Assembly (NCBI GenBank): GCA_018389105.1
Contig: JACATO010001062.1
Coordinates: 186,001-250,000 of the forward strand
Length of the DNA: 64,000 nt
DNA from: Nautilus pompilius
Lineage: Eukaryota; Mollusca; Cephalopoda; Nautilida; Nautilidae
Direction: 5' to 3'
The position numbers and the translations under genes are program-made. Under the pieces are notes generated by a model, which was not told where the DNA came from, did not search any database, and worked only from the letters and a program-made list of their open reading frames with translations. Positions 1 to 59,081 of the stretch are shown here, in pieces (the stretch's first letter is position 1; the number at the start of each line of letters is the position of its first letter).

Positions 1-1967
1 TTGTCTCGTGAACAGGCCTGGTGTCATATGCTGATAGACCATTTTTGTCAATGCATATCCAGTTGTAGTTTTCTGTTTAGGCATTCACACTTTGCTGAAC
101 AAAAGTGTCCAAAAAATTAGCAGAAGTGCTAGAAACCATCTGCACCTGTGTGTGTGTGTGTCTGTCCTGCTGACATGTCTGCCATCTATAACTGATCCAC
201 CAACAAAAAAGGGGAAAGGAATGAAAGAAAAAAAATAGTAGTACAAAAATATCAAAGAAACTATGTGTAAGTCTTATTAATATATTTCCTTAGCCCAGTA
301 ATATAGAAAATACAACGAGACCTTCACGACGTTTTCTTTGTCTTGAATGGTCAAAACATAAAGCTGTTCAAAATGGTGTTCATCATCAATTGTCTTGGAA
401 ACAAAATCACATACCCGCCCTCAAACAAACAAACAGCCCAGAAGTAATGCTTAAACAGATATACTGGTGATAGTTTGCCCCTTCCCCCATTTTTATCTTG
501 CCATCAAAAACTACTCGCTATACTGGAAACGGTTGTCTTGGTACTAGGTTACCATTCAATCATGACGATATTTAGACGAAGGTTGAGAAACCTTTGGTCA
601 CAGAACTTAAAATGTACACTATTTATTTTTAAAAAAAGTAACTCTTTTATTTGAAAATAATTACTCTCACAGGCAGGTGACATCATGTGATTTGAAATAA
701 ATGGAAGCAGAGAATTTTAAAAAGTAATGAATGCCGTGCCATCATCATAATTTTTCATTCTTTTATAATTTCTTTCTATCTGTGTAATAACTACAGATCA
801 AGAATAGCCCCGCAGAGTCAATAGCCAGACATGATGATCGTAGAATGTAACTCAGAGAGATGAGAATACCCCCTTAAAGTTAAGGGTGGAGAAATAAAAA
901 AAAAACAAACTAGGAGTTCTTAGAATAATTCATTCAGATGGACCGGTACAAAAGAGCAAGAGAAAGCTACGCAACTGGCTGGTCACCATGATCACTAAGC
1001 ATGCTAACTCTGATGTTTATGGAGGAATTATGAATTGCTTGCTTGCAGAAGCCATAGTGAAGAGAGTCCACACATTTTATTCCAGTAGGGAAAAAAAAAG
1101 CAAAACTACAAGAGAGTCTAAACAAAATGGTGGTGAATGTGTAGTCAGGGCTAGTACGTACATACCTCTTATACTTTCTTTCTCTTGGGGACAAACTGAA
1201 CTTAGGCAGCAATGGGCAAAGGTGTTCACTAAAATAAATCTGCAAAAATAAAAACAGACAGATTATAATAGTGTAATGTTTTGCTTATAATCTAGTTTAA
1301 AGGCGCACACAAAGTCATCACAGTCGATATAAGAATCCAATGAGCGTTAATTTTTTATATTGTTTTAGGATTTGCTAACAATGTTTGAAGATTACTACCA
1401 TATTTGCAGTTCACTTTTTAAACATCTTCTAGTGAGGACCTCCTTTGAAAGAAAAGAGGGTAGAAGATTCACAGTTTTCAACATGAAGCCACCAGTTTTT
1501 ACTTCCTTTGTGCCCTAAACAGGACCCGTTATCCAGAGAAAGCCACTGGTGACATTCTCAGAAAGATGCACCAGCAGCCAGTTTAAAACCAACTTTTGCT
1601 TAAATTTTGCTCGAAGTGATCAGAATCATTGCCGTGATTTATATAGGAGATTTTAATATCAGAAAATCAGAGAATTCCTGTATGAACGGGGCCAAGTTAA
1701 TTAGATTTCAGCTAAGTAATTTTGACAAATAATCTGTCTTGCTACACAAGCTTGTGATTAGTCTAACCACAGGGAGGCTGCTTGATACTGTGTCAGTTCA
1801 CTTCCCTCTCAGGACGTTTTGTAGACAGCCGGGGTTCCTCACCTCCCCATACACCAGTTAGCTTAAGTTGTGTTATAATGCCAACTATACACTTTATTAT
1901 AATGCCAACCTAAAATTATAAAAATAAAGTTTTAATATACACAACAATTAATACCTATTCCTTATTA
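1..1967. other. AT-rich non-coding sequence
   Basis: No gene or recognisable mobile element is visible. It contains a short (TG)8 microsatellite at about 147-162 and several A-runs. Two opposed open frames at about 970-1250 overlap each other and have no recognisable protein features, so they are treated as chance. Confidence 0.6.
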
Positions 1968-2272
1968 CACTGGTCAACAAAATTAAATGTATTATACTCA
2001 TTATGAATGCAAGCCAACTTTTTTAGACTAATTTTTCATGCTGATTTCAAAATTTCACTCCATTTGTATACAGCACGTATCAGTTTTTCAGTAGATACAT
2101 AAAAAAATATTTACATATTTGTATATATGAAATCATTAACATAATAAGTAAGGACATAATAAACTCATTTACTTTCTAAAAATAATGAGTTAAAAATCAT
2201 CACTATCATTCTACAAAGAGTGAATACACACAAAATGGGTCAGACAAAACAGACAAAGTTAGAACAACAGAG

Positions 2273-3157
2273 TTAGAAACATTGTGATTTGGATTTCCTG
2301 CGGTGTTCCTGATCTGGTTGATCACGGTAAAGTGTCCAGCAGTAGGTCAGCCAGCATACTGTCATTCCAGAAGCCTTTGTACCGTTTCTCCATAGCACTA
2401 ATGTCCTGGTGAAATCTTTCACCATGTTCATCAGACACTGCTCCAAGGTTATCTGCGAAGAAATCCAGATGGGAGTCCAAGAAGTGAACTTTCAGTGACA
2501 TGCGACAACCCATTGCTGAGTAACATTTCAGAAGATTCTTGATGCCATCCTTGTAGTCCATTGCCTTCTTGTTGCCCAAGAAATTCTCACAGATCCAATT
2601 GAAAGCATTCCAGGCAGGCAGTACAGTTCATCCAGTGTTGTCTTGAATTTGACATCTTTGAGTACTTCTCTAATTCGGGGTCCGACAAAGATACCCTCTT
2701 TCAACTTCGCCTGTGAGATTTTGGGAAACTTTTCTACAATATACTCAAACCTTCTGGCATTTCTCTTCCCTAGTGTCTTTACAAACTGTTTCATCAGTCC
2801 AAACTTTATGTGCAAAGGAGGCAATAGGACATTACATGGATCTACAAGAGGTGTATTCTTGACGCTAGACAGTCCTGGCTGGTATGATGTTCTTGTCTGC
2901 CAGTTTGATTCCGAATAATGTCTGTCAGTTGCCCGACTATCCCATAGACACAAGAAACAACAGTATTTTGTGAAAACTGACTGCATTCCCATTAACATTC
3001 CAATGACTTTTAAATCTCCACATATTTTCCATGAGTATCTTTCATAGGCAATGGCATGAAGTAAAAGTTCCATATTCTCATATGATTCATGAAGATGAAC
3101 GGAGTGTGCAATAGGAATGGAGGGCTTCAAATTACCATTATGGAGAAGTACAGCTTT
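2273..3157 (-). pseudogene. C-terminal two-thirds of GERFHQD-family transposon protein, frameshifted
   Basis: Reading the minus strand from about 3157, one frame starts at KAVLLHNGN and includes HLHESYENMELLL, ICGDLKVIGMLMGMQ, YTK/FTKYCCFLCLWDSR, LPPLHIKFGLMKQFVK and KEGIFVGPRIREVLKD. These are in the order seen in a multi-copy protein family found in many arthropod, cnidarian and mollusc genomes. A one-base shift near 2613 moves the frame to AWNAFNWICENFLGN, then GCRMSLKVHFLDSHLDFF and SDEHGERFHQDISAMEKRY. A second shift, an extra C near 2345, is needed to restore the usual ADYCWTL end and reach the stop at 2273-2275. The family has no assigned function that I know of. Its repetitiveness and the inverted repeats around this copy argue that it is a transposase or a transposon accessory protein. 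The many conserved Cys and His residues suggest metal binding in part of it. Confidence 0.72.
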
Positions 3158-3170
3158 TTAAAAAAAACAT

Positions 3171-3287
3171 CTATAGCTTATAAATCTTCTTGATCTCTGG
3201 TGTTATTGTACGTTTTTGAGCTTTCACAATAAATTGTCCACAGACATAACAAAACACATCAGGAGGATTTCTACACTGTCTTGACAT
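3171..3287 (-). pseudogene. N-terminal zinc-knuckle fragment of the same GERFHQD-family protein
   Basis: From the ATG at 3285-3287 the minus strand encodes MSRQCRNPPDVFCYVCGQF and continues through IVKAQKRTITPEIKKIYKL before a TAG. This matches the conserved start of the family, including the C..C pair in FCYVCG that begins a Cys-rich N-terminal domain. Where full-length members continue for a few hundred residues, this copy jumps to the KAVLLHNGN segment within about 15 bases, so most of the N-terminal half is missing. The exact match at both edges shows an internal deletion and not independent insertions. The start codon was chosen because the family consistently begins M-x-R-x-C. The codons upstream of it look like AT-rich untranslated sequence. 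Confidence 0.7.
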
Positions 3288-3343
3288 TGTTAACACTGTA
3301 AAACAAGTAAGGAAATAGATACAAACGGTTATACTTATATTGA

Positions 3344-3462
3344 ATTTGAGATGATGAAATATTTCATCAGACCAATTATGACTGGACAATTTGAGATGTT
3401 GAAATACCTATTTCATCAGACAAAACTTGATTGGTTAATTTAAGATGATGAAATATTGCATC
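3344..3462. repeat. Three tandem 46-48 bp units with GATGAAAT palindromes
   Basis: Units begin with A(A)TTTGAG/AAGATG at about 3344, 3389 and 3437. The first contains a perfect 16 bp palindrome, GATGAAATATTTCATC (3353-3368). The second carries the same arms separated by two bases and the third is degraded. They lie just upstream (in minus-strand sense) of the ATG of the GERFHQD-family gene, inside the transposon. This is the place expected for subterminal transposase-binding or promoter sites, but that role is inferred. Confidence 0.6.
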
Positions 3463-3706
3463 TGAACTATGCAGCAATGAATAATGTAGTTTATTTAAAG
3501 GTATGTTTCCATGATGTAAATGAAATACATGCATACACGTCATTAATTGGAATTTCTATATAATGCATGAGCTAAACCAAAAAACTTTCTCATCTTGAAA
3601 ACTGTACGTGATGTCAAAAAACTAATTGTATATTTGAAATCAGCATTAAAAACTACACTAAGTACACCCTGACATATGCTTGATGAAAAATACTTGTTGA
3701 CCAGTG

Positions 3707-6700
3707 AATTATTCAATAAAGGTAATTTGAATAATTAAAATGAAAACCTTACATACCTAAATCCAAACAAAATTCTTGTTTTAATAATTAACCACAATAC
3801 ACCTCTGTTATTCAAAGTAATTTAGTCTTTCAAAGAAAAACAAAAGTGCTAAGGCAATCATTTTGATCAATTTTTTCGTTCACATGAAAACTGTCTACAC
3901 TATACTGAACTGTATACCATTTGTTTGATAATAAAGGTATGACGACTTTCCCAAAGCTCTCAATCTGAAAGAGAAATTATGCTGTAACCGCAAAGGTAAA
4001 AGACATTAGTGTTCTGGAGACGGCTATTCCTTAAGCACCATTGCAAACAACAAATTGTGCTCTGGTTATGCAGCTCTGCCTATTTTCTATCAGGATATTA
4101 GAAAGCACATATGCAGCTACATCATCAGTTGGTTGGCTTTCTCTTCAAAACCACATATGATGCCACCTCTCTCTCTCTTCCACAAAAAAAAAAAAAAAGA
4201 GACAAAAATAATTTTTGGAAACATGCATCTGAAACATATAATAATTCTAGGTTGGCGACCATGTAAACCACATGGCTAACAGAACGATGGTACTCTAATA
4301 ATCAGGGAAATTCGTCATGGTTCACATTTCTTTCTAAACTCAGCAAACATCTGCAGATGGCTAGTAAACTAACGGGTTACAGCTGAGAAACACACTGATC
4401 ATCACCACCCTAGAATAGATAGCAAAACAAAAAAAAAGGGCGCATGCTGTGGCTCATTAAAGATGTCTATTTTACTTGTGCATTAAGAACATAGTTTTTG
4501 TAGCATCTGGAAATCTACATTCACACGGTCTAATAAACTTCTATAATGGATGGTGAGTTAGCACAGTAGTCATATGCACAACATAACTTGGTGGTATCCA
4601 GAGTTCTGGCTGCTGGACATTTAGCCAGTAAATCTGATTTCCCTTGCTCATTTTTTAACCAACACGTCATCACAGGTTTTCTTTCCTCCAACCTTCCTGG
4701 ATGAGCCCAACTTCTGATAAGGAGGACAATCAAGAGATGCAACAATTGTGCACAAGCATGTGTTTGGTTTTCTTCTAATTTTATTATTTTTTTAAAACAG
4801 AATTCTTAGAAACCTTGAACAAGCCAGAAATGTAAATATTTGTTTAAAAAGGTAACGAGTAAATAAATACAATTTCTTTATATTTATACCTTAATTTTTT
4901 GCTTTCTTTTGAAGTTTATGCATAACTAGGTTTATCAAACAGTAAATTTATTAATTCCCCAACCAGAGCACAGATACACTGTGTCATCTTACCTCTTCAA
5001 GGGAAGGACTTTGCACAGTAGTCTGCCTTTTCATTGTAAATGTGAATTCTTGTTTTTTTTTAACTATTAGAATTAAAAACAAAAAAACACACCAGGAATC
5101 CTTCCTTGTCTCACTATTTAAAGCTTAGGTTACGGTACATTTAGAGAATACAGTCCAAGGTGTTCCCATCTCACTAAAGATGTTATCAGTTTGGAGAAAG
5201 TGCAAAGCAAACTGTGGCATTTCGTAAATTAGAAAGAGGACAATTAACACATTTAAAAATTAAAAGTCAGAAATATGTAGATTGAGCTACTAGACTACAA
5301 ATATAAAATAAAACTTTATAAACACCATAGTATGTTTATCCATATATTTTGTATGTTTTTTTAGTAACAGAAGAGTGAATGCATTGAATGGCATGTCTTG
5401 TAAACTTATTAAATGCAGCACGAGTAATTTGGTTGAAAATGCTTTGGATAGTTGACTTGAAAGACTGGTGTCGTTTTTGTGCCCCTCTACAGATGACGGC
5501 TGCAAAAAAAGAGTAAGACTGAAGCCACAACACAGGCACATTGCTGTGACAGGGATCTAAGAACCGGAATATCAACTTTCAGCCTCTATGATAGTTTCAT
5601 AAGTTGATGCTGTTAGAACCAACTTGCCTCATATACTCTTATCTCCTGTGCCTCTCATGCTCCTAAAACATAAATAATGTTTTTGATTCAAATCCATTTC
5701 CTCAGAATAAATTGGGAAAAGAAATACAATAAGCATTCAGGTCAGAGATTTTCAGCCAGAATCCCCATATTGATATCGGTATGTTTTCTATTCAATTTCT
5801 TTTTTGCTTTAAAGAGAAGTTTGAATAAATCATCACACACAACTCACCACTTATAGGCGTACAAATACAATTTACTATTTTATTCAGATCACTTACAGTG
5901 ATTCATTGGATTAAAAACTAGCACAGTTCACAACTGTCTTTTATATTAATGCAATTCAATATTCAAAATTTAAATACATTTTTAAAATAATTTTCAAAAA
6001 ATCCAATTCAGGCATTTTTTCCCCGAAATATATATTAAAAAATAAAAACGCTGTTAACGTGATTTTTATTGACTACTGCTTTGCACAATACTAAAACTAT
6101 ACAGACCACTGCATCATTTAATAGGGTAGAGCTGTCAGTGTTATCTAGGAGTTAGCTAAGCCAAAACATAGCAAGTGTCTTCATTAAAATATCACGAATG
6201 CATTATTAGCCAAACTTGAACATAATGGGCAATGATCCACTTCTTTGTTCCTGTATCAATTCAAATAGCAATGATCTAATATTTTAACATATAACCCATG
6301 GCTAGGATTTCTTTTTAAGAGAGTATACGGATGCTAAAACTGATTTTGCTTTTATCTCGACATTGACACTTCAAGAAGCCAAAGGAAATTAGCATATGAT
6401 CGATGCCTGGAGCTGACACTGAGGGGATGAAATTTATTTACATGTTGACATAATTATTGATTTCCATGCACTCGTCTTTCCTGAACTGGCATTAAAAACC
6501 TGCAAAATTTTAAACAGAACAAGTTATCTGAGCAGCATCTGTTTCTTTCATCCTTCGGGTAATTTCCATAATCTTGCCAATGTAACAATACAATGTGAAC
6601 CTCAGTGACAAATTGGTCCAAGTCCTTCACTATCTGATCTTGTCTCATAAAATGCTGTCAAACAACCTACTGCACAGTGAAACAGTAACAGATGTTGTCA

Positions 6701-15800: not shown

Positions 15801-18471
15801 ACAACAAAAAAACTCAACATGGTAGCAATAATCTGTTCAGAACTACATCTCACACTGACACCTCAAAGTATCTTGCTACCATCACAGCATAATAAGCAAC
15901 TTCAATGTCCCTGTCTTCCGTTCACCGTGTATATGGAGACAAATGGGAATCTCCAAACAGTGAAGTAAACAGTAGAATTTGTTTTGTACATTGCACATTT
16001 TCCCAAAAATCTCTTCACTGGCAAATTTTGTTTTCTACCAATAATCATAATTCAAGCCACATTCCGATTTCAGATTATCTAAGCACATAATGTCTACGGC
16101 GGATATTTTCACACACACACAAATAAAAAAACAGCCTATAATTCCAAGAGTGAGTTCAGGAAAAAAAAATAATCTTATTTGATAATTCCAGGTTAACTGA
16201 GACCAAACAGCAGCAGCAACAAAGATTTCCATTCTTTTCAAAAACTATTAATTCCTATCCTTTAAGTTGCATTATGGGCAAATGCGAACTACCACCTTAT
16301 AATAATAATAACATTTTTTTAAAAGCCAGAACAAACAACAGCCAAACTACTTCCTAAAACGCATAGCCTCACCAAAGCATTTCCCTCTAATACATCTTAA
16401 AACACTGTCTATGTTTCAAACATTTTTATGGCTAATTTGAGCGATGGTCAAAACTTTAATTCAAACCTGTTTTGTGTCAGTATACACTCACCAACAGCAA
16501 AATGGCTGAGCATCATTAATCTGCAACTCTCTCGCCACCACATTCTAAAAACTAAAACATTTTTAACGCTAGATTTTTTAAAAAAGGATAACAACTCCGA
16601 ATAAGCAAACTACTGAATACAAATATCTTACCCATTAAAAAGAATATGCCCAGTCCACACCTTCCCCACTTGTCATCTTCACTTACAAGTTCAAGCCCAC
16701 ACGCTCATCTTTATTTGAATTTCCTTTTCTTCTCACAAGATGCTCTTACCTGTTGATGTTAACATGACACGCTATATGGCATGTTTAAAACAATTCTCTC
16801 TGCCTCAAAACCTTTCCCATACCACAAAACCATCCAACACAATGCAGCATTACCCTCAGTAAGCGGTAACCTAAAAGGCAGGCTTCAGCTCTTTCCACAC
16901 AAATCCAGTTCTACACTGAAGTCTCAATCATCTAAATACTGTACTGTATTCAATAATACTTAATCTTCTCAAACAGAAGACAGTCAGATTGCTATCAATT
17001 TCACCCTCTAATTCCTGAATGCATCAGGCAGCATGGAAATAAATTCTTAATATTTATCTGGATTTAACTGCTTTTTACCGTAACAAGTGCAGTTGCTTGT
17101 GTGAAAAAGAAGTCACCTCTTAATAGGCTTACAGATACTCACAAATGAATGTTACCATGCTACCCCTGCTTCACATAGGCAATACATCTTTGTAAAGCCT
17201 TATCTAGTCAAACTAATGTCTGTTAAACAATAGTTACATTTATAAGTCTGAAACAACTACTAATAAAGAACTTGTTTGTGATGATATCAAAGTGGTTAAA
17301 AGAACCAAAGTACGAAAATTTAGGAAAAGAAAACATTTGTCATCTTTGTTGTTATTAGAGTTTATTTTATTAGTAACTTTAAAGCGAATATTTAATATTG
17401 AATGCATAAATAATGAAATGCTATTTTACAAACTAACTATCCATACCATGTGTAACAAAACTGCTAGTATAATGGTAACTAGAATAGATTACCAATGCTA
17501 GCTGCTAGAAGTAATATAGATAAGCACAGAAAGCCAGATGGACAAGAGTCTTTTACATGGTGCTCCCTCTCCTCCAGGAGTGAGCAATTTTAGTCTATTT
17601 ATTTATTCTTCTAGAAATCTTTCCATTACCTGGTTTGTCAAAGCATTCTAAGCAAATTCTACAGGTATACTAAAACATCTATTCTGATGTGTAGTCAAGA
17701 ATGTCTCATTACCACTATACTCGTACATCTTTTGCCTCTGACCTCTTCTGACACGTGATGTCCAACAACCATCAGGGCCGGGCTTTGTTTTCCTTTGCAG
17801 AAAGAAATGGTAATAACAAGAACTCAATCGCATCACCGTCGAAATTTCTGTAAGCTGAACTCGGTAACAGGTAGAGTATAAATCAAGTTCTGAAATCATA
17901 CTGATAGAACGCCTTGCTATAATAACTAAAATAAGCTAAGTTCTAATGAACTTTCTGCTCCCTGAGGTTGATGTATTCTCATATGAAAGATTTTCCTTTT
18001 TGTAAATAGCCTTTCTCTACATCCCTGCATTAGATGCTTTCCAGAAGAGAAAGCTTTGTACTGGCACTGCCCACCACATATCTTTGTGTGACTTTGCTTA
18101 TTCTATACAAAATAAATAAAGTTTAAAACCAACTTCCTAGGAACAGCACCACCTCTGGTCTAAAAGATGATATATATATATTTTTTTTTTAAAGTCTAGA
18201 ACTTAAGGAAAACACCAGCAATCTGTCTTAGGGAAGATGAAAAAAAATTGCTGACTTTTAAAATAAAGGCAGCCAGAAATTTTCACCTGGCTGCATAGTG
18301 AAATTTCCACTCCTCTAGTGTAAACTTTGAAACCTGACTTTCTTTGGAAGCTCAACACACACACACAAAAAAAACCCAACTAATTTAAAGGAGTCGTGGA
18401 TAAAATGGTCCAACTGATGAAAGAATAAAATGTAAAATAGATTAAAGAACTACGCACCCTACAGCTACGAT

Positions 18472-18474
<3 letters not shown>
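12801..18474. other. AT-rich sequence without recognisable genes
   Basis: Short frames at 13190-13582, 15082-15375, 15783-16241 and 17648-17899 were read on both strands. They show no motifs, repeats or splice context that supports a gene. A few patches (13190-13580 and 15080-15310) are closer to 40% GC and may be decayed repeats. No mobile-element ends were recognised. Confidence 0.5.
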
Positions 18475-18523
<49 letters not shown>

Positions 18524-18598
18524 AGAGAGAGAGAGATGGAGAGAGGAGAGGAGAGAGAGAGAGAGAGATGGAGCGAGAGAGAAGAGATCTGGAGAGAG

Positions 18599-18641
<43 letters not shown>

Positions 18642-18860
18642 TCGAGAGAGGGGGAGAGAGAGAGAGAGAGAGCTGGAGAGAGATGAGGGGGAGAGATGAA
18701 GACGCTCTCTCCCTCTCCCGCGCCCAGATGAGGGGGAGAGATCCGCTCTAGGAGAGCGCAGAGCTGACCGTTCTCAGCCACTCCTGAGAGGCGGGCGAGA
18801 TTGGAGAGATGTCCTATCAGTATACAGAGAGAGAGAGATGGAGCGATGAAGTCAGTATAC

Positions 18861-18893
<33 letters not shown>
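18475..18893. repeat. Compound (GA)n purine tract
   Basis: About 420 bp dominated by GA dinucleotides on the plus strand, interrupted by short inserts such as a region of mixed sequence at about 18698-18830. Inner duplications are visible: GATGAGGGGGAGAGAT occurs near 18682 and near 18727, and CAGTATACAGAGAGAG occurs near 18818 and near 18853. This points to slippage plus block duplication. The long frames it creates on both strands (repeating Arg-Glu or Ser-Leu) are artefacts and not genes. Such mirror-repeat purine tracts can adopt triplex (H-DNA) structures. Confidence 0.95.
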
Positions 18894-21800
18894 TTTTTTT
18901 GTATCCGTCCCACACACACGTGACCATCTTAAAATGACTTCAGTCCATGCTATCTTATCAATGATGTTCTCAGTCCTTGGAAGAATGATCAGAAGTCACG
19001 ATGCATTTGAATGATGCATATATAAACAAGACTTCATTTATCAGATTCTCTCTCTAAACTGAGTAAAGTACAACGCACAGTGCGATATTATCATTTTAAT
19101 GCTCCACGCATGCAAAAAAATTAAAATGAAAAATAAACATAGAGATAAAAATAAAAGTTAAATCATTTGTAGGAATTGTGTCCATGAAAATGTAATTAAG
19201 TATTTAAACTCTGAGTCGAAATTATAAGTTTTATGCCACAAATTTTTAGCGCCTAAAATTAATGCAAAATTCTAAAACGAAGTATGCTTTTTACAGCAGG
19301 TTCATCACAAATGGCAGCAGATTTAAATTCCATGCATCACATACACTGCTTCATAATGTCATTTATTAACCTTTGCCTGTTTCCTGCAGATTTAGGAACT
19401 ATCGTCTGAATAGTTAGAGTTGGGAGGGAGGGGAAGAAAGGGCCAACAGAATCTAAAAAAAAAAATAAGGTGTACGAAAATTTACATTTATAAAGAAATG
19501 CCAGTTTATATTGTCATGCATACAGGCATTTCTTTAAAATTCCCCAACAAGCTTTATAGGTAGATGGTGATGTTTGTGTGCATAGCTGTATTTTGCGACT
19601 GGACATTTTAACATACAGGAAATTCTGAGAAACGGCAGTAAATACTCTTACACTGTATGGTAATGCAGTTGTTTCGGATTTTGAAAATTCAAAAAAAAAA
19701 GAGCAAAAAAATAACTTTAGCCTTCAAGAACACACAAAAGACACCCCCAATTCTTGAAAAAACTATAATTAACTTACAAACCTTAACAACGGCACAAACA
19801 AAAGTTGTATTTTTTTTTTTGTTTTAGAAAATATACACCAATACAGTCATCATCATGATCTACAGCACCACCAGTATGCCATTACAGTTAAGTGATGCCT
19901 TTGCTATGAAGCCACTGATAAACACCATTCTTCACAGCGCCAGCCATGTATACCTTCTCTCAGAGGACTGAAGAGATGAAAAGCTGAGTTACTGAGTCTG
20001 AAATTTAAGGGTGAGGAAGACTTTTGATGTTTTGAAGCTCGTGTGAGGTTCATGAAACCCACTAAGCACATACTTTTAGAGTAAGCAAGGTTATTAGTAA
20101 TCATCTCAATAGCATGATGACTGATGCTGAGGCCTCATCACAAAACGTGTGCTGCATGATGTGTCAATTTCTGTCAATCAGTCTTTAACATCTGTTACCA
20201 GTTGCCTTCTGTGAGATCTCTCTTGGAGTTCGGTTCCTCTACTTTTCTCATGATTTATCCAGCATCATCATATAAGTTTTTGTACACATTCATTATATAA
20301 CAGTGAATTTCAGTAAGCAAAATCTTCTCAGCTGAAAGAAATTCAATTACTGCTCTTTACTTAATGATGTCATCAATGATAGCTGTCATTTTGAACTGTT
20401 GTGGTATGAAATATAAATGTATCGTTTACAATTGTACTACTTAATATTCTTTACAAAGGAAGCTTAATTACTTTTGGGGTATCCCTTTTATTTGTAAAAG
20501 AACAATGATATAAAAACTGCAATAAAATTTGGCAGATTATAATCCAAACTTCAGCAACAAACCAAAAAAAACTAAGTGGCAATTAACATAGGTAATACAA
20601 ACAACGAACTGCATAAGGTAAATGTTGTACAGCCTTAGATACACAAGAACAAGAGATGATGTTTAAAAGAAAAATTAAGGATCCAATAAATAATAAATAA
20701 AAATTTAATAATCTGTAGTTTTAAAACAATAAAATCTCATGTCATCCAAGAACAATGAGAGGCCTGGATGCTCCCAACATGACTGAAAAATGGTCAGAAG
20801 CTCCCTTTCATTAAGATGCAATATAGTATTCTCTTATGTCCAACAATTTTACAGAAATTTAAACCTTGTGAACTAAAGATTCTATTTTACCAAAAAAAAA
20901 ACCAGATTGTTTTTGTCTTAGCTATGTTTTTACTGCCACTGTTTTCACAAGAGCTAAATGTGTACGCACCCAAGCAGGTTCTGATCAACAGGTAAGGCAG
21001 AAGGAAAGTTCCGAGGATGAACTTGACTAATTGATTTAAGGGATTCATATGCTGGTTTCCAAAACCTTCCAACCTAAACAATAAAAAAAAAACAAAAAAC
21101 AGAATAATTAATAAATGAATACTTGACAAAACCTGCAAAATGAAAATAATCTAGTCCCCTAACTAAGATGGACTAGAAAAGGTAAGAATACATTCTAATG
21201 ACGAAACAACAACAACAGAAATTCTTGGGAAAAAAAATAACCGAAAGTGAACATCAACAAAACAGAGAATAAACAAGGTACCAAAGATCCAGTTTTTAAA
21301 TTTATGAAAAACAAACAAATAAAAATAAAGTGCTTGTTTTAAAATGGATAGATTTTTAGTTGTCAAGACAAGTAACAAAGATTCCACCTAGCATTTGCGT
21401 TTAGAGTGTACCAGGCATCGTCTTATCCGATTCCATAGTAAATCACTTAGCAGTTCTTTTTTTTTTTTTTAAAAATAAAAAAATTAACATATTCCCTGCT
21501 GCTTTTGTTATAGTTAGCAAGTTTATCCTTTCATAACGAAATCCAGTCACAGTACAAATAGATTAAAGAGAAAGCATAATAAACCAGTTGGCACCACGAG
21601 CGAGGTCTTGAAAAGTGCCACCGTTCTCCAATATTACTGGCATCGTGGCAAAGCCGACCACCAACCCAACCTCATCCTCCTCCCACTTGTAAGACCGAGG
21701 GGTTAAAAAAAGCCTGGCAACAGAGGGGCAAGTAATTGTTTCGGAAGTTTTCCATGCATGAGTCAAACCACCCGACACAACTTCTGAATTGGTTGTTAGC

Positions 21801-24829: not shown

Positions 24830-25870
24830 ATGGCTACTGGGAAGGATATATCATGTGACAATTGGATAGAAATCAAAGTCTTGGCGAGCGAAGGCTGCTC
24901 CATGTGGTAGACTACAACCTGACTTCATGTTTCAGGAGGAGCTGTATACAAGACTCTGAGGAGGATACACAACTCTGTTACCGTTCACAACAAAAGTGAT
25001 GGAGGAAGAAAACCTAGAGTCTCCAAAAGCAATGCTATGTACCTCAGGATATGTCTGTGATAGACAAAGAGCCAGTAGAGACCTTCGCATTACCTGGCTG
25101 CGAGTATGGGTGTTAACATGGTTTCAAGAACATTAAAATATGCATTGGTGTGAAGTGACCTCAAGGGATGTGTAGCTGCCTGAAAACATTTGCCAAGGAG
25201 AGACAACTGAATGACAAGGATGAAATAGGTGGCAGAAATTAAACGGTGAGGTGACCAAACCTGGAAGAAGGTGGTGCTCGTTATGGGTAGATCAGAGTTT
25301 GAGCCGTTTGGCAATAATCAACAGAGATAGACCGAGAAGTGATACAACAACTACAGTGAAGGATAGGATGGTGGGGGGGGGGTAGATAAATGCTAGTGTG
25401 GGGCAGCATATCACTGAACGGTTTCGAAGATTTGCATAAAATCAAAGGTATACTGAATGCTGACAGATACAGGCAGGTTCTTGTCCATCTCGCCATTCCC
25501 TCAGGAAAACATTTCATTGGGCAAGGATTCATCTTCTGACATGACAGTGACCCCAAGCATACAGCCAATATGGTGAAAAACTATCTGAAATGTAAAGATA
25601 CTGATGGAGCACTCACAAATGGCCTGCACAAAGTCCTGATGTGATCATTAAACTATGATGTTATATGGCTACTGAGAAAATCAAAAGACAATTGAATAAA
25701 TTGTTGAAAGTGCTACAGGATAGTTGGAACAACATTCCAGTCAGTCATATGTTGATAACCTGTATGGGAGCAGGAAAACAAGGTGCCAAGCTCTGTATAA
25801 AGCAAAAGGATCGCATACCAAAAGCTAATACACTGTACAGCACATTAATTCTGTTTTTTGTACATTTTCT
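24830..25870 (+). pseudogene. Tc1-like transposase relic
   Basis: The plus strand starts MATGKDISCDNWIEIK at 24830, like the N-terminal helix-turn-helix of Tc1 transposases. It continues with RIHNSVTVHNKSDGGRKPRV (the GRP-type hinge between the two DNA-binding halves). A degraded WKKVVLVMGRSEFEPFGN (about 25262-25310) corresponds to the W-x-x-V-L-x-SDES-x-F-x-x-FG block, with the catalytic Asp lost. RYRQVLVHLAIPSG and GFIF-HDSDPKHTANMVKNYL (25460-25590) are the second catalytic block. The canonical W-P-x-SPDLNPIE region and the C-terminus (about 25600-25830) are only loosely recognisable. Frames change repeatedly and stops are common, so the gene is dead. In Tc1 elements this enzyme performs cut-and-paste transposition at TA sites. 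Clear terminal inverted repeats were not found. Confidence 0.8.
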
Positions 25871-28800
25871 GTGATATTGCATCATGTATGTTATATACAT
25901 CTACCAGTTGTAATTATTCATTATTTGCGCACATCATGTGTGTGTTTCAATAATTATTTACAATATTGTAAATTAATTATCTGAAGGTAAGATGCTGGTC
26001 ACATTGGACAGTCAGTCAGCTTAGTAAATAATTCTATGATAATAAAATCATTTGTAATTTAACTTTTGATTAAAACATGTAACAAAAATTATAATTTGTG
26101 AGCGAACATACATCATGCGGGAATCATGTCTTTCACCTTTATGCTAGTAAATCTTAAAATAATTATGATTAGTGTAAACACAACAGAGAAAACAAAGTTA
26201 CGGATATTTTTGAGCCAGAATATTTGAAGTACTGCATTTTCCAATTTTAGGCATGCTATCTTGACAATGCAATTAAGACAGCAGCATGTATTGATTTTTA
26301 GAATAAATTTACAACAACACCATGATAATGCTGGAATTTTAAATATAAACTTACAAAAAAAAAAAAAACCAACAGATCTACATGCATGGAATTTAATCGA
26401 TTTGCCAGAAAAATTCAATCATTATAGTCTTCACTGTTGCAAAAAATGTCAGTTCTAAACGTTCTGAAACTAATTTCTAAATACTGTTGTTTATTAATGG
26501 TGTGTAATAGGTAATCTTAGAGCTATAACTTAAAATAAAACACAATATAGCAGTTCTACTTAATGCTGTTTTGCCCTCTTTCTCTGCAAGTTTTCCTATA
26601 GCTAAAAAAACAAAAAAAAATCAAGTTGTCAGGGTCTCTTAGCCAGATTATGTTCATGTATACCGAATCAGCAATGGTATTAAATATAATATGGATGTGG
26701 TCCCTGAAAATTTGACTTCAAATTATTCATGAACAAAGTTCTACCCTGAATTACTTACTACAGCAGCTGTAGTTGATGAAAAGCAGATGGCCACTGATTT
26801 TCATAAATCCTTGTAGCACGAAGCCTCGCCAGACAACCAGAATGGTTTTTAATAATTTACATTTTGCTGGTTGTTTCTTTAAATGCCACCAACTCTTTCA
26901 CTGCCAATGAGGAGTGGGACCTCTTGTGTCACTTGTGCCCATAATCAGCTAAGTTTATTAATGACTACAGAGTAGGTTCACTCAAACTATATACACTAAA
27001 TGGGGTGAAGAATTAGAGAATATATTAATACTGTAATGTTTGGGAATGCGTGCAACAAAATTTGAATCACAAATAAGAGAGTTTACACTTTCTTTGCTCA
27101 TAAACTTGGTAAAAACAAAGCATTTTGTTGTAATAGATGTAATTTCATTTTGAACTATGACCGACCTACTCTCTAATTGTTAATAAAATGCCTGGTATTA
27201 ATCTGTTAAGAATTAATTCCTTTAAAAGAGATGACATTCTTAAAAGAAAACTTCATTTGTACGTGTGTTTATTATTAAGTTTTTTTCTAATGGGCATCTT
27301 TAATCCCAAAACCCAACTTTCTATTTAGGAACTCAAGCACAAAATGTAAAATCTATTTACACTATACTAAATGCATAAAGCTGTTTTCCCTATGTCAGTA
27401 CAATAATGGTTTATCAGAGTAGCCTTAGATACATGCTGCCACAGGACCAGTTGAGAAACGCTGCATAGCTACATACAAAACCTGACTATTGGATATGTAC
27501 TTGACAAACAGCAAGTGGTAAAGCACATTACAGTTAGCATGAAATGAATAGCCGACTTCAGCAGCTGGAAGGCAGTAAACTGATAACTCAATGCTGGAAC
27601 CATAATGTGCGTCAAACACAATATAAACTGATCGTGAAAGAAACGATTAGCTAAGCACTGCACAATACACCTAAAGTAATCTTGTTTGTCTCATCTATAT
27701 TACTTCATGCCACTCTCTCTATTCAGTTAAATACAAATCTTATCCCGGTACGCTATCTAGTTTTACAAAGTAAATGATCTCAAAGAAAAAGAGAGAGAGA
27801 GAGAGAGAAAAAAAAGCTAGATGAGGTTCTTTTTCTCCTAAGAAATAACAATTTTAAAAAATGTAATAAATGGGGCAAGCAGCAGCAAAAGTAGACATCT
27901 ACATCTCATTTAGAGTATACAATCTTTTAATCAATTTGATTATTGAGAAAAAATACATGTCATTATCCAAAACTGCTCAATGTAACTAACAATGACATGT
28001 TACAGCGGAAACAGTCGCAAATTGTTAACCAGAGCTAATGGTCTAAATAACGGTCTGACCAGTTCTAAATAATCCAGAACATAAAAAAAATGTAAAGACC
28101 AAGTTTGTGCCCATGAAGACTTCAGTTTTATTTAGAGTTAACAAAAGAAACTAACAAGTTATCACTTAAAAAGTTGAATAAAATGTTTTACTGAGACGAC
28201 AATAGAATTTTGCCATCTGGATAAAAGGCACAACAATAAAAGGGAGGTAACTGGACACGTGCATTTTCTTTTACAAATTTTTAAAATACATTCTCTGTAG
28301 TGACAGATTTCCATTAAAAAATAAAAAAAAAAAGGAAAAACAAATCCAGAAGCTCTGTGAGAATCCCCAGTTTTCCAGATGTCAGCTAGGAGAAGGATTG
28401 TTGGTTCTACCAAGCACGAAACTAACTTTCCAAAAGCTAATATTAGACAACCATATGCACAACAGGGTGTGGCAACAGATACAACAAAAGAGAATGTGTT
28501 TGCTGGGCTAATTATTCATTAACAAATTTTAGCTAAAAAAAAAAACAAACAGTAAAATTATTGTTTAAAATTTAAATTATAATATATGATAATAAAATAT
28601 TATATTCATAAATTAATAAAACTATTTGTATACCATTATTTTTTAAGCAAAAAAAACTAAACAAATTTTTCTCTTCTCTTTTCCCTGAGACCAGGCATTA
28701 GCCCTAATGGCTGGCTTCTTGCTTAACTGCTAAACTAAACTAAACTAGTTTCTTATTTTCTTTTTAAAACAGACATACATTTTTCTTAGATAATCCATCA

Positions 28801-32146: not shown

Positions 32147-33825
32147 TAGTAGCATCTCACTATTATAAACCACCATTGGACTTAGGGAAACATTCACTAT
32201 AACAGCTTTTGTTGATTTGCTAAGACGACACAAAAATCACGCTCATAATTTTTTTAAACATTCACATTATAAAACAAATTCTAAAAATCAAACCAAAACA
32301 AAACTATAATTGTATTGATGACTTATTACAAGCAAATATATAATTATATACATGTACAACAACAATATAAAAAAATGTCTGTAGAAAAAATACAAAAGGA
32401 TAAAAAAGTAAAAATTTACATGGGTTTCCTTTTTAAAACAAGCTATAAAATATGGAAGCTGATAAATATCATTACATTAGAGGAAACCAATATAGCTGTT
32501 CATTTTAGCAACCTCCCCCAACTATCCAGTGATGACTGATTAAGGTACATCACTCTTTTCTCTACAACTGTTTTCAATCTTGTCTTCAATGGTTGCCAGA
32601 GATTCTACATAACAATGCAAAGTTTCAATGACTTTAAGACACTCCTGTAGCGAAGAGATAACTGGTTAAAAAGAAGCAACATCCTTTTCACTTGTCTTCT
32701 TTTTACCATACTTAACATACCTGAATAACTATATGATGTCTTCATCGTCCATGGTTGCACAAGTAGAGGCCTGATTTTCTTCATCATCAATTTAATCTAT
32801 CAGACCTTCAAAGATGCCAAGTATCTTACATTCTTCATTAACATTCACAACAAGCATCTTTCATTAAAATCACCTTTAACCCAACTAGCATAATGTCTAA
32901 AATAGTTGGCTGTGTGTTTCTCAATGACATGGTCTCAAGCTTTTTTTTAGTGAAGTGCATGGCTTGAAGAATATCCATTTGAAATTGATGGTTAGCGTCA
33001 ATGCAATCCACCATCATTCTAAGCAGCAATGTATAATACCATGATTTGAAGCAGTAAATTAAGCTTTTGTCCATTGTTTGGAGTACAGATGTTAAATTAG
33101 GAGATAAGTGCGCTGTAACAGCCTTAAGTCCTGAAACTTTTGGAATGAGCCAGGCAGCTATCAACAAACAAAAGCAGTATCTGCTTCTGGTGGTTACACC
33201 CATTTTGTCCACAGGTGACCAATCATCCAAGCCTTTTTTAATGAAATGATAGATGAGAGGAAGAGTTATCACAATTTCAGCATTTGCAGAAACTAGTATC
33301 TTGCTATGGACAAACTGGGAAAACAAACCATTTTAATCAACAATCTAAATGTCTCAGGGGTAGAAACCTCTTACCAGTATTTTTCAACCAAATAAAGATG
33401 GTTTTGTGTGCATCCTCACAACAGACTTTCCCCCCATTGACTGAAACTTAGAACATGACAGTTTTTATGTGCTCCAGCCATCCACTAGAGAAATTTAAAT
33501 CATTAAATCCTAATGTTGTTGTAAATCTGTTAACTTCAGCAGCCAGAAACTGAAGTGTTTCTATCTCTCACTGATTGACACGAGCATTCTAAACCCCCAT
33601 AGTCTGGTATACAAAATCTCTTTTCTATAATAGACATCTCAAAACCTACAATAGCTGACTTAACTTTCATCATGTTAGCCCATTATATTGCAATAGCAAG
33701 ACCACTTGACAAATTTCTGTTTTACAATCTATAAACCATGTAGCACATAACAAAAAATATGCATTCTTATAAGTCAATGCATCTAATGCAAATAAAATTA
33801 TTGTATAAAGGGTGAAGCATTACAA
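32147..33825 (-). mobile_element. Tigger/pogo-like DNA transposon relic
   Basis: The left end reads TAGTAGCATCTCACTATTAT (32147 onward) directly after TA. This resembles pogo/Tigger termini of the CAGT-x-G-x-ACCTC-x-CTAT type. The right end, TATAAAGGGTGAAGCATTAC (33804-33823), is an imperfect inverted match. Between them lies a single decayed transposase on the minus strand. A length near 1.7 kb is shorter than complete Tiggers, which suggests internal deletions. Insertion at TA agrees with the family habit. Confidence 0.6.
32600..33700 (-). pseudogene. Tigger/pogo (CENP-B type) transposase relic
   Basis: Reading the minus strand, a degraded second DNA-binding (Tc5/CENP-B) domain appears at about 33590-33450: IETLQFLAAEVNRF, then LGFNDLNFSSGWLEHIK, like the LG-x-x-FKAS-GWL-RFK motif. 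The catalytic DDE_1 part follows from about 33325. It includes DDWSPVDKMGVTTRSR, a blurred equivalent of LLLDNAPAHP, and LSPNLTSVLQTMDKSLIYCF (about 33100-33041), corresponding to LPPNTTSVLQPMDQGII-x-x-FK. It ends in a segment equivalent to LLDAIH-x-x-x-AW-x-x-V-x-x-x-T-I (about 32990-32860). The catalytic Asp of DNAPGH is not visible. The gene is inactive. Confidence 0.75.
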
Positions 33826-57690: not shown

Positions 57691-59081
57691 ATGGCTCCAA
57701 GAAAGTTCCTACTGATAGTCCTAATGCTGGTGCCACTAAGCGCCATGCTATATCGTTGGAAGATAAGCTGGCTATGATAAAATGCCATGAAAATGGTAAA
57801 AAGATTGATACCATAGCTCGTGCTTTTAGCTTCAATTGGATGATGGTATCGACGATCGTTCATGATAAGGCACAGATTTTAGCCCACATCAAAGATGAAG
57901 TTCCAGTGACGAAGAACACCATCATCAACAAGAAAAGAGTAAATGGAACATCTTCTTTCTCCTTGGATTGAACGGCAGACTTGTCAGCGTATTCCCATAA
58001 GCCAGCTGTTGATTCAGGAGAAAGCGTCGTCTTTGTTTAAAGACCTCAAGAAGTTTCCCGATGAGAAAGACGCAGAATTCAAGGGAAGTTCAGCATGGTT
58101 TATGCGGTTTAAGCAGCGACACAGTCTTCAAAACGTCAAGATCAAAGGTGAAAGTGCGTCGGCTGAAGAATTAGCTGCATCGGAATTCCCAGCGACTTTG
58201 GTGGAGATTAATGAGGAGAACAGATTTCTTCTAGAACAGATATTCATCATGGATGAGACCGGTCTCTTCTGGAAGAGAATGCCAGATTGTTCATTCATAG
58301 TCAAGGAGGAGAAGGCTATGCCAGGTTCAAGGTCTCAAAAGACCATTTGACCCTTCTGTTGGGAAGCAATTGCTCAGCGACTTTAAGTTAGAGCTGCTGC
58401 TGGTGTATCCTGCCCAGAATCTTCGAGTGTTGAAGAACATCCCCAAGGCCTCTCTCCCAGTTGCATGGATGGCAAACACAAAGGTTTGAGTGACTGTTGC
58501 AATTTTTGAGGATTGGTTCTTCAACCACATTGTACCAGCAGTGGAGAAGTATTGTAAGGAGAAGGGCATCCCGTTCAAGATCCTCCTTATTTTAGACAAC
58601 GCTCCTGGCCACCTGCAAAACCTTGATTTTCATCTGAACACCACCGTCGTTTACCTCCCCCCCAACACCACCTCTCTCTTGCAGCCGATGGACCAGGGGA
58701 TCATTGCCATCTTCAAACGCTACTACCTTAGGCGTACGTTTAGGCAGGTTGTGGCTGCAATGGAACTGGATGACGACGTCACACCCCGTGACTTTTGGAA
58801 GAAATACGAAATCTACAAGAACCGCGACACTTCACCATCATCAGCAGCAGGGCTTTGTGCACATCGAGAAAGCGCTTGTAATTTTCGAGGAGATGGATCC
58901 CAATGCTCAACACTTTGCAAAATTATGGGGGCAGTTCATGACGCTACTGTTCCTTATAGGATCATCCTACATGAAAAGAAGAGCAAGACTATTCAGGGCA
59001 CTCGACCAGTTCTTGCAGCGCATCAAAAATCAACAGGAAGAACTTGAATCGTCTGCTGGAGAGCCTCAGCCGTCAACGTAG
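57691..59081 (+). pseudogene. Tigger/TIGD1-like pogo transposase with frameshifts
   Basis: The ATG at 57691 starts MAPRK, and after an early frame change the text continues ATKRHAISLEDKLAMIKCHE, a CENP-B/pogo helix-turn-helix. The second DNA-binding (Tc5) domain follows: PISQLLIQEKASSLFKDL and SSAWFMRFKQRHSLQNVKIK (about 57990-58145). The DDE_1 catalytic core shows all three acidic residues in context: IMDETGLFWKRMP (58247-58285), LLILDNAPGH (58583-58612) and LLQPMDQGIIAIFKRYYLR (58678-58734), with about 31 residues between the second and third. Frame changes occur near 57705, 57940, 58330 and 58375, and a TGA at 58487-58489 replaces an expected Trp. A deletion near 58805-58850 removes the segment after FWKK. 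The C-terminal tail (HIEKALVIFEEMDPNAQHFA to the stop at 59079-59081) is open. It is related to human TIGD1-type Tigger. It cannot encode a whole enzyme but is the youngest-looking transposase here. Confidence 0.9.

Follow-up and report, generated by a model that had tools for sequence, protein, structure and literature searches.

The window analysed here, a stretch of 64,000 nucleotides from Nautilus pompilius (contig JACATO010001062.1, positions 186,001 to 250,000 of the forward strand), contains the relic of a protein-coding gene between short inverted termini. From the letters of the window, the original prediction had placed this gene, described there as a widespread uncharacterised multi-copy animal protein, inside a cut-and-paste transposon. 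Does the gene lie inside a mobile element, and if so, to which kind does the element belong? We are highly confident that the element at positions 1968-3706 is non-autonomous and arose by internal deletion from a cut-and-paste DNA transposon of the Chapaev3 type. The features that delimit it are the following:

1965..1967, no strand: left target site TTA; the right TTA lies at 3709-3711, after two extra A
1968..3706, minus strand: internally deleted, non-autonomous Chapaev3-type element of 1739 bp, its boundaries and deletion shared by 38 other copies in which both tips are present
1968..1980, plus strand: terminal inverted tip CACTGGTCAACAA at the end 3' of the gene, exact and found in genome copies
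2023..2079, plus strand: left arm of an imperfect subterminal inverted repeat, 74% complementary to 3605-3661
2038..2051, plus strand: inner inverted block ATGCTGATTTCAAA, separated from the tip by 57 bp, found in other copies
3605..3661, minus strand: right arm of the repeat whose left arm is at 2023-2079
3633..3646, minus strand: inner inverted block ATGCTGATTTCAAA, separated from the tip by 47 bp, found in other copies
3694..3706, minus strand: terminal inverted tip CACTGGTCAACAA at the end 5' of the gene, exact and found in genome copies

The 13-bp inverted tips had been called perfect, and no mismatch was found between the two of them. The second inverted block, announced at 60-70 bp from the ends, begins 70 bp inward of the outer end on the left and 60 bp on the right, so that the length from tip to block differs by a net 10 bp between the two ends. 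Both blocks lie within the 57-nt arms. Inward of the tips, the two ends of the element aligned with a gapped local score of 84.6, compared with a maximum of 67.4 among 2000 mononucleotide shuffles of one end. As this score exceeds those of all shuffles, the two ends together make up a long inverted repeat, imperfect and with arms of roughly 110-120 bp. The coordinates noted from the window, 1968-3706, are also the element boundaries found in other copies.

The host assembly (728 Mb, 2558 contigs) was searched with the tip and the inner block together, as the original prediction had proposed. The exact tip followed after 40-65 bp by the block was found 643 times in forward and 647 times in reverse orientation, giving 1290 ends genome-wide, while a reversed-pattern control gave none in either orientation. 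Among 100 ends listed out of the 1290, the spacer measured 47 bp in 39 and 57 bp in 45. These 100 ends formed 30 facing pairs spanning 1301-2391 bp, and 40 ends were unpaired at exact match. The lengths of the pairs cluster at about 1.3-1.4, 1.57-1.63, 1.7-1.8, 1.9 and 2.3-2.4 kb, indicating several length classes of the element.

A DNA search with the whole element returned 1248 first-look candidates, of which 40 were scored, namely the window copy and 39 others with 93-97% identity to it; all 39 were read with 100-bp flanks. Both tips (up to 3 mismatches) were present in 39 of the 40 copies, the exception being L023, which has no right tip. The last 20 bp of the left flank were distinct in all 39 copies with both tips. 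The element is young and present in high copy number in the host genome: 39 derivative copies showed a mean pairwise divergence of 2.95% and a median divergence from the majority sequence of 1.5%. A second search, with the 209-aa protein piece of the window, gave 150 scored hits out of 6006 candidates. Both tips (up to 2 mismatches) were found in 27 of 30 loci cut from the best of these 150 hits, the three exceptions being L053, L055 and L075, and 13 of the 27 are long copies of 2294-2394 bp.

We then turned to the edges of the copies, where a target-site duplication of fixed length had been suggested as a check. Identical 3-bp flanks were found in 27 of 39 copies (17 TAA, 9 TTA and 1 TAT), and equal flanks of 2 or 4 bases in none of the 39. 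The base at -4 was A in 36 of the 39 copies and the base at +4 was T in all of them. In the remaining 12, which include the window copy, the 3-bp flanks were not identical; four of these carry TAA on one side and TTA on the other. Since TAA and TTA dominate the flanks, mismatched left-right pairings between copies already agree over 3 bases in 37.7% of cases, and with two dominant words it was the concordance of the word itself that was tested. In 30 copies each of the two flanks is either TAA or TTA, and the words agreed in 26 of them (17 TAA/TAA, 9 TTA/TTA, 4 TAA/TTA and 0 TTA/TAA; Fisher p = 5e-5). At the 27 protein-found loci with both tips, of which four are the window copy or copies from the DNA-found set, a hand count gave 16 with equal and 11 with unequal 3-bp flanks. 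The window copy has no clean duplication, two extra A standing before its right-hand TTA. Taken alone, it hinted at a 4-bp duplication (TTAT with TACACTGG/TTCACTGG), a length excluded by the absence of equal 4-mers in all 39 copies. Two protein-found loci, L050 and L059, show non-TWA 3-bp repeats at their edges (CGA/CGA and TAC/TAC), so the length of the duplication seems to be kept even off the preferred site.

Sites without the element were sought by joining the flanks of a copy without the element and without one duplication, and by comparing these constructs with a database made of the loci collected here and the window. We tried 71 constructs, duplicate fetches of the same copies included, and a match had to cover at least 15 bases on each side of the junction. 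Three constructs found paralogous element-free sites, with the target word present once in each. The joined flanks of L017 align through the junction to L006:3678-3888 (92.4% over 211 bp) and to L065 (92%), those of L044 to L049 (75%), and those of L008 to positions 25969-25816 of the window (66%). The start of the L044 flanks is also similar to this last segment (25816-25969, minus strand), which, given its 66% likeness to the L008 flanks, is probably a copy of a dispersed repeat that received the element elsewhere.

These results bear on the alternative that the two ends were paired by chance, or that a host gene family lies between repeats. We found nothing in support of it; the tip, when up to 2 mismatches are allowed, is about as frequent in the window as expected by chance. 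This reading is refuted by the 1290 exact ends against none in the control, by the 30 facing pairs, at distances of 1.3-2.4 kb, that the 100 listed ends contain, and by the same boundaries recurring in 39 of 40 copies, whose 39 left flanks all differ, together with the existence of element-free sites; its probability is practically nil. The gene therefore lies inside a cut-and-paste element, as originally proposed, with paired tips at 39 of the 40 DNA-found copies and 27 of the 30 protein-found loci and with a 3-bp duplication. Transposition thus accounts for the copy number of the gene.

The protein pieces noticed in the window (FCYVCG, CCFLCLWDSR and GERFHQD) are real, and all lie on the minus strand between the paired ends. 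In the order of the protein, the transposase remnants are:

3174..3287, minus strand: residues 1-38, which open the N-terminal cysteine-rich region (FCYVCG) and show no difference from the 554-aa copy (tblastn)
3161..3172, minus strand: deletion junction, at which about 660 bp (about residues 39-259) are gone relative to the long copy L071, including the presumed first catalytic D (D254)
2528..3157, minus strand: open frame of 209 aa, the middle of the transposase, in which GDLKVIG contains the second D, CFLC the C(2)C motif and PPLHIK the LH
2346..2621, minus strand: residues 440-531, which switch to the other frame and carry H(4)H (HFLDSH) and the last E of the core (GERFHQD)
2276..2345, minus strand: C-terminal part (...RDQPDQEHRRKSKSQCF), where a second frame change restores the frame of the middle piece

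The frames of the remnant alternate, residues 1-38 and 440-531 lying in one and the middle and last residues in the other, and the final ~30 residues of the 209-aa open frame are out of frame. The part missing from the window copy corresponds to positions 443 to 1104 of the L071 element. Upstream of the transposase start, at about 3371-3465, the window copy carries ~94 bp that are extra relative to L071 (a size taken by hand from alignments); a 29-bp direct repeat lies at the bounds of this stretch and GATGAAATATTTCATCA-like motifs lie inside it.

The long copies, of 2.3-2.4 kb, have the same tips as the window element. One of them, L071, is 2294 bp long and has an uninterrupted frame of 618 codons, which gives 554 aa from the Met of the conserved N-terminus. 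By our own count, a frame of at least 554 aa occurs in 11 of the 150 scored rows of the protein search, of which L071 alone was read. The 554-aa protein contains, in order, D254, D308, C327-C330, LH (PPLHIK), H485-H490 and E507. These positions come from a pattern search, except that of LH, which was taken directly from the sequence; H(4)H had two further matches, at 278 and 505. D254, D308 and E507 are the presumed catalytic residues, assigned from the order of the motifs rather than by alignment. The N-terminus contains further C(2)C motifs at 13, 57 and 93. The flanks of L071 itself show no clean duplication.

The full 554-aa protein matched no Pfam family at E values up to 10. Against NCBIfam, PHROGs and the PDB, which contains RAG1 and Transib structures, nothing significant was found. 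Outside the host, which was the sole eukaryotic genome searched, no relatives came from viral contigs, genome contigs or phages. In the literature, the letters of the tip led only to unrelated papers among the matches listed, and the protein motif strings gave no match.

The Pfam result weighs on whether this could be a CACTA/EnSpm or a PIF/Harbinger element. CACTA elements have CACT-type tips with 3-bp duplications and Harbinger elements duplicate TWA; the tips found here start with CACTG and the duplication is of 3 bp, mostly TWA. Both superfamilies are nevertheless represented by models in Pfam, none of which matched the full protein, and its N-terminal cysteine-rich region with C(2)C...H(4)H fits Chapaev3. 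Harbinger elements are not known to have CAC tips. An assignment to either superfamily is therefore exceedingly improbable.

Further features lie elsewhere in the window. A broken pogo/Tigger-like transposase lies at 57943-59047 (plus strand) in two open frames, with a Tc5-type DNA-binding domain (PF03221, E 2.4e-13) first and DDE_1 (PF03184, E 1.4e-20) in the second frame. At 32838-33332 (minus strand) there is a Tigger-like tail together with a DDE_1 match that is weak (E 0.015) and falls short of the curated cut-off; this is probably another relic. The long open frame at 18380-18928 (minus strand) consists mostly of a simple-sequence SLSLSL repeat.

The deletion seen in the window copy is shared. 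Its junction was the same within 5 bases in all 39 derivatives measured, and exactly 443/1104 in 34 of them, so that one deletion event founded the class. A residual frame of 294 aa is present in many derivatives, as seen in the protein search. Across the 39 derivatives, changes in these 294 codons fell almost evenly on the three codon positions (177/161/170), with 128 synonymous and 353 non-synonymous changes and a dN/dS-like ratio of 1.05. The frame contained 27 stops, was broken by gaps in 14 of the 39 copies and was still open in 13. Selection on the residual frame, for example as a repressor, is rejected on the distribution of the changes and on this ratio. The loss of ~660 bp including the first D, the shared deletion and the neutral decay together identify the window copy as a non-autonomous derivative. 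Decay of the frame with no visible constraint fits mobilisation by an enzyme supplied from elsewhere.

The bipartite ends, in which 47 bp separate tip and ATGCTGATTTCAAA on one side of the element and 57 bp on the other side, raise the idea that transposition might need one short and one long end. The difference of 10 bp is about one helical turn, and among the 30 facing pairs 18 were exactly 47+57, 12 deviated by 1-14 bp, and none was 47+47 or 57+57. The related RAG recombinase follows a 12/23 spacer rule, and a requirement of this sort, if true, would be its counterpart in Chapaev3. As the copies descend from one element, the asymmetry is not independent evidence, and it could be due purely to common descent; the requirement is a long shot. 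The inner block was also considered as a specially conserved site, which is unsupported: its divergence at the two ends (0.030 and 0.023; 64 and 61 ends) is no lower than that of the neighbouring spacer and inner flank (0.014-0.030). Any function of the block is putative.

How the derivative spread may be pictured as follows. The parent would be an element of ~2.3-2.4 kb encoding a single-frame transposase in which an N-terminal cysteine-rich region precedes a D-D-C(2)C-LH-H(4)H-E core. Transposase from full-length copies would bind both ends, cut at the CAC/GTG tips and insert the element at ATWAT sites, the central TWA being duplicated. One derivative that had lost ~660 bp and the first D was presumably mobilised in trans and amplified, and its residual frame would drift neutrally once inserted.

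What the original prediction described as an uncharacterised, multi-copy protein family of animals is very probably the Chapaev3 transposase. A young, high-copy element with at least one open long copy (L071) bears on annotation, on recent activity and on horizontal transfer, which PMC4079192 already reports for Chapaev3.

Setting the element against known groups, the closest likeness is to Chapaev3. According to PMC4079192, Chapaev3 elements such as Garfield, Merrow and Conan share with it the CAC/GTG tips, the TWA duplication between A and T and the C(2)C-LH-H(4)H motifs, as well as a size of ~2.3 kb with an enzyme of ~555 aa (2294 bp and 554 aa in L071, 2,289 bp and 556 aa in Garfield_BM) and internally deleted non-autonomous derivatives, described there from silkworm and lizard. 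The same text gives CAC/GTG tips and the three motifs for the wider Chapaev superfamily and not just for Chapaev3. All the Chapaev3 elements that it examined duplicate TWA between A and T; of the traits tested here, this target is the only one attributed to the group as a whole. The element differs from Merrow and Garfield, which according to this source have two exons, most other Chapaev3 having one; with the single open frame of L071, it is probably neither of the two.

Chapaev sensu stricto and Transib/RAG1 share with the element the clade motifs and CA..TG tips (PMC4411706 and PMC12730594). PMC4411706 describes a zinc-finger "Chapa" domain in Chapaev and in Chapaev3 and treats the latter as a clade of the Transib superfamily, while PMC12730594 places Chapaev3 as a sublineage of Chapaev in a wider clade with C(2)C and H(3-4)H. 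CACTA/EnSpm elements likewise have CAC tips, a 3-bp duplication and C(2)C and H(3-4)H motifs (PMC12730594). The preference for TWA, the size and the N-terminal cysteine-rich region seen here fit Chapaev3 better than CACTA as we know it. The length of the duplication also separates the element, with 3 bp, mostly TWA, from Chapaev proper and Transib, which duplicate 4 bp and 5 bp, respectively.

Could it instead stand apart within the CACTA-Mirage-Chapaev-Transib clade, as an undescribed superfamily or sublineage that is only distantly like Chapaev3 in tips and motifs? No model of Pfam, NCBIfam or PHROGs matches the protein significantly, Chapaev3 was compared by description, and several newer lineages of the clade with C(2)C and H(3-4)H are reported in PMC12730594. 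The combination of TWA between A and T, CAC/GTG, C(2)C-LH-H(4)H, ~2.3 kb and ~555 aa is nevertheless that of Chapaev3 as described in the source consulted, and goes beyond clade-wide motifs, which leaves a separate lineage very unlikely. Of the original placement, near CACTA/Chapaev or apart, the Chapaev side holds, the evidence pointing to the published Chapaev3 group (PMC4079192 and PMC4411706), so that a lineage of its own is not supported. As the tested features match published Chapaev3 traits, we file the element under Chapaev3, by anatomy and by comparison with published descriptions rather than with proteins. It is in all likelihood a member of this known group, probably not a new kind of element and at most a new family member.
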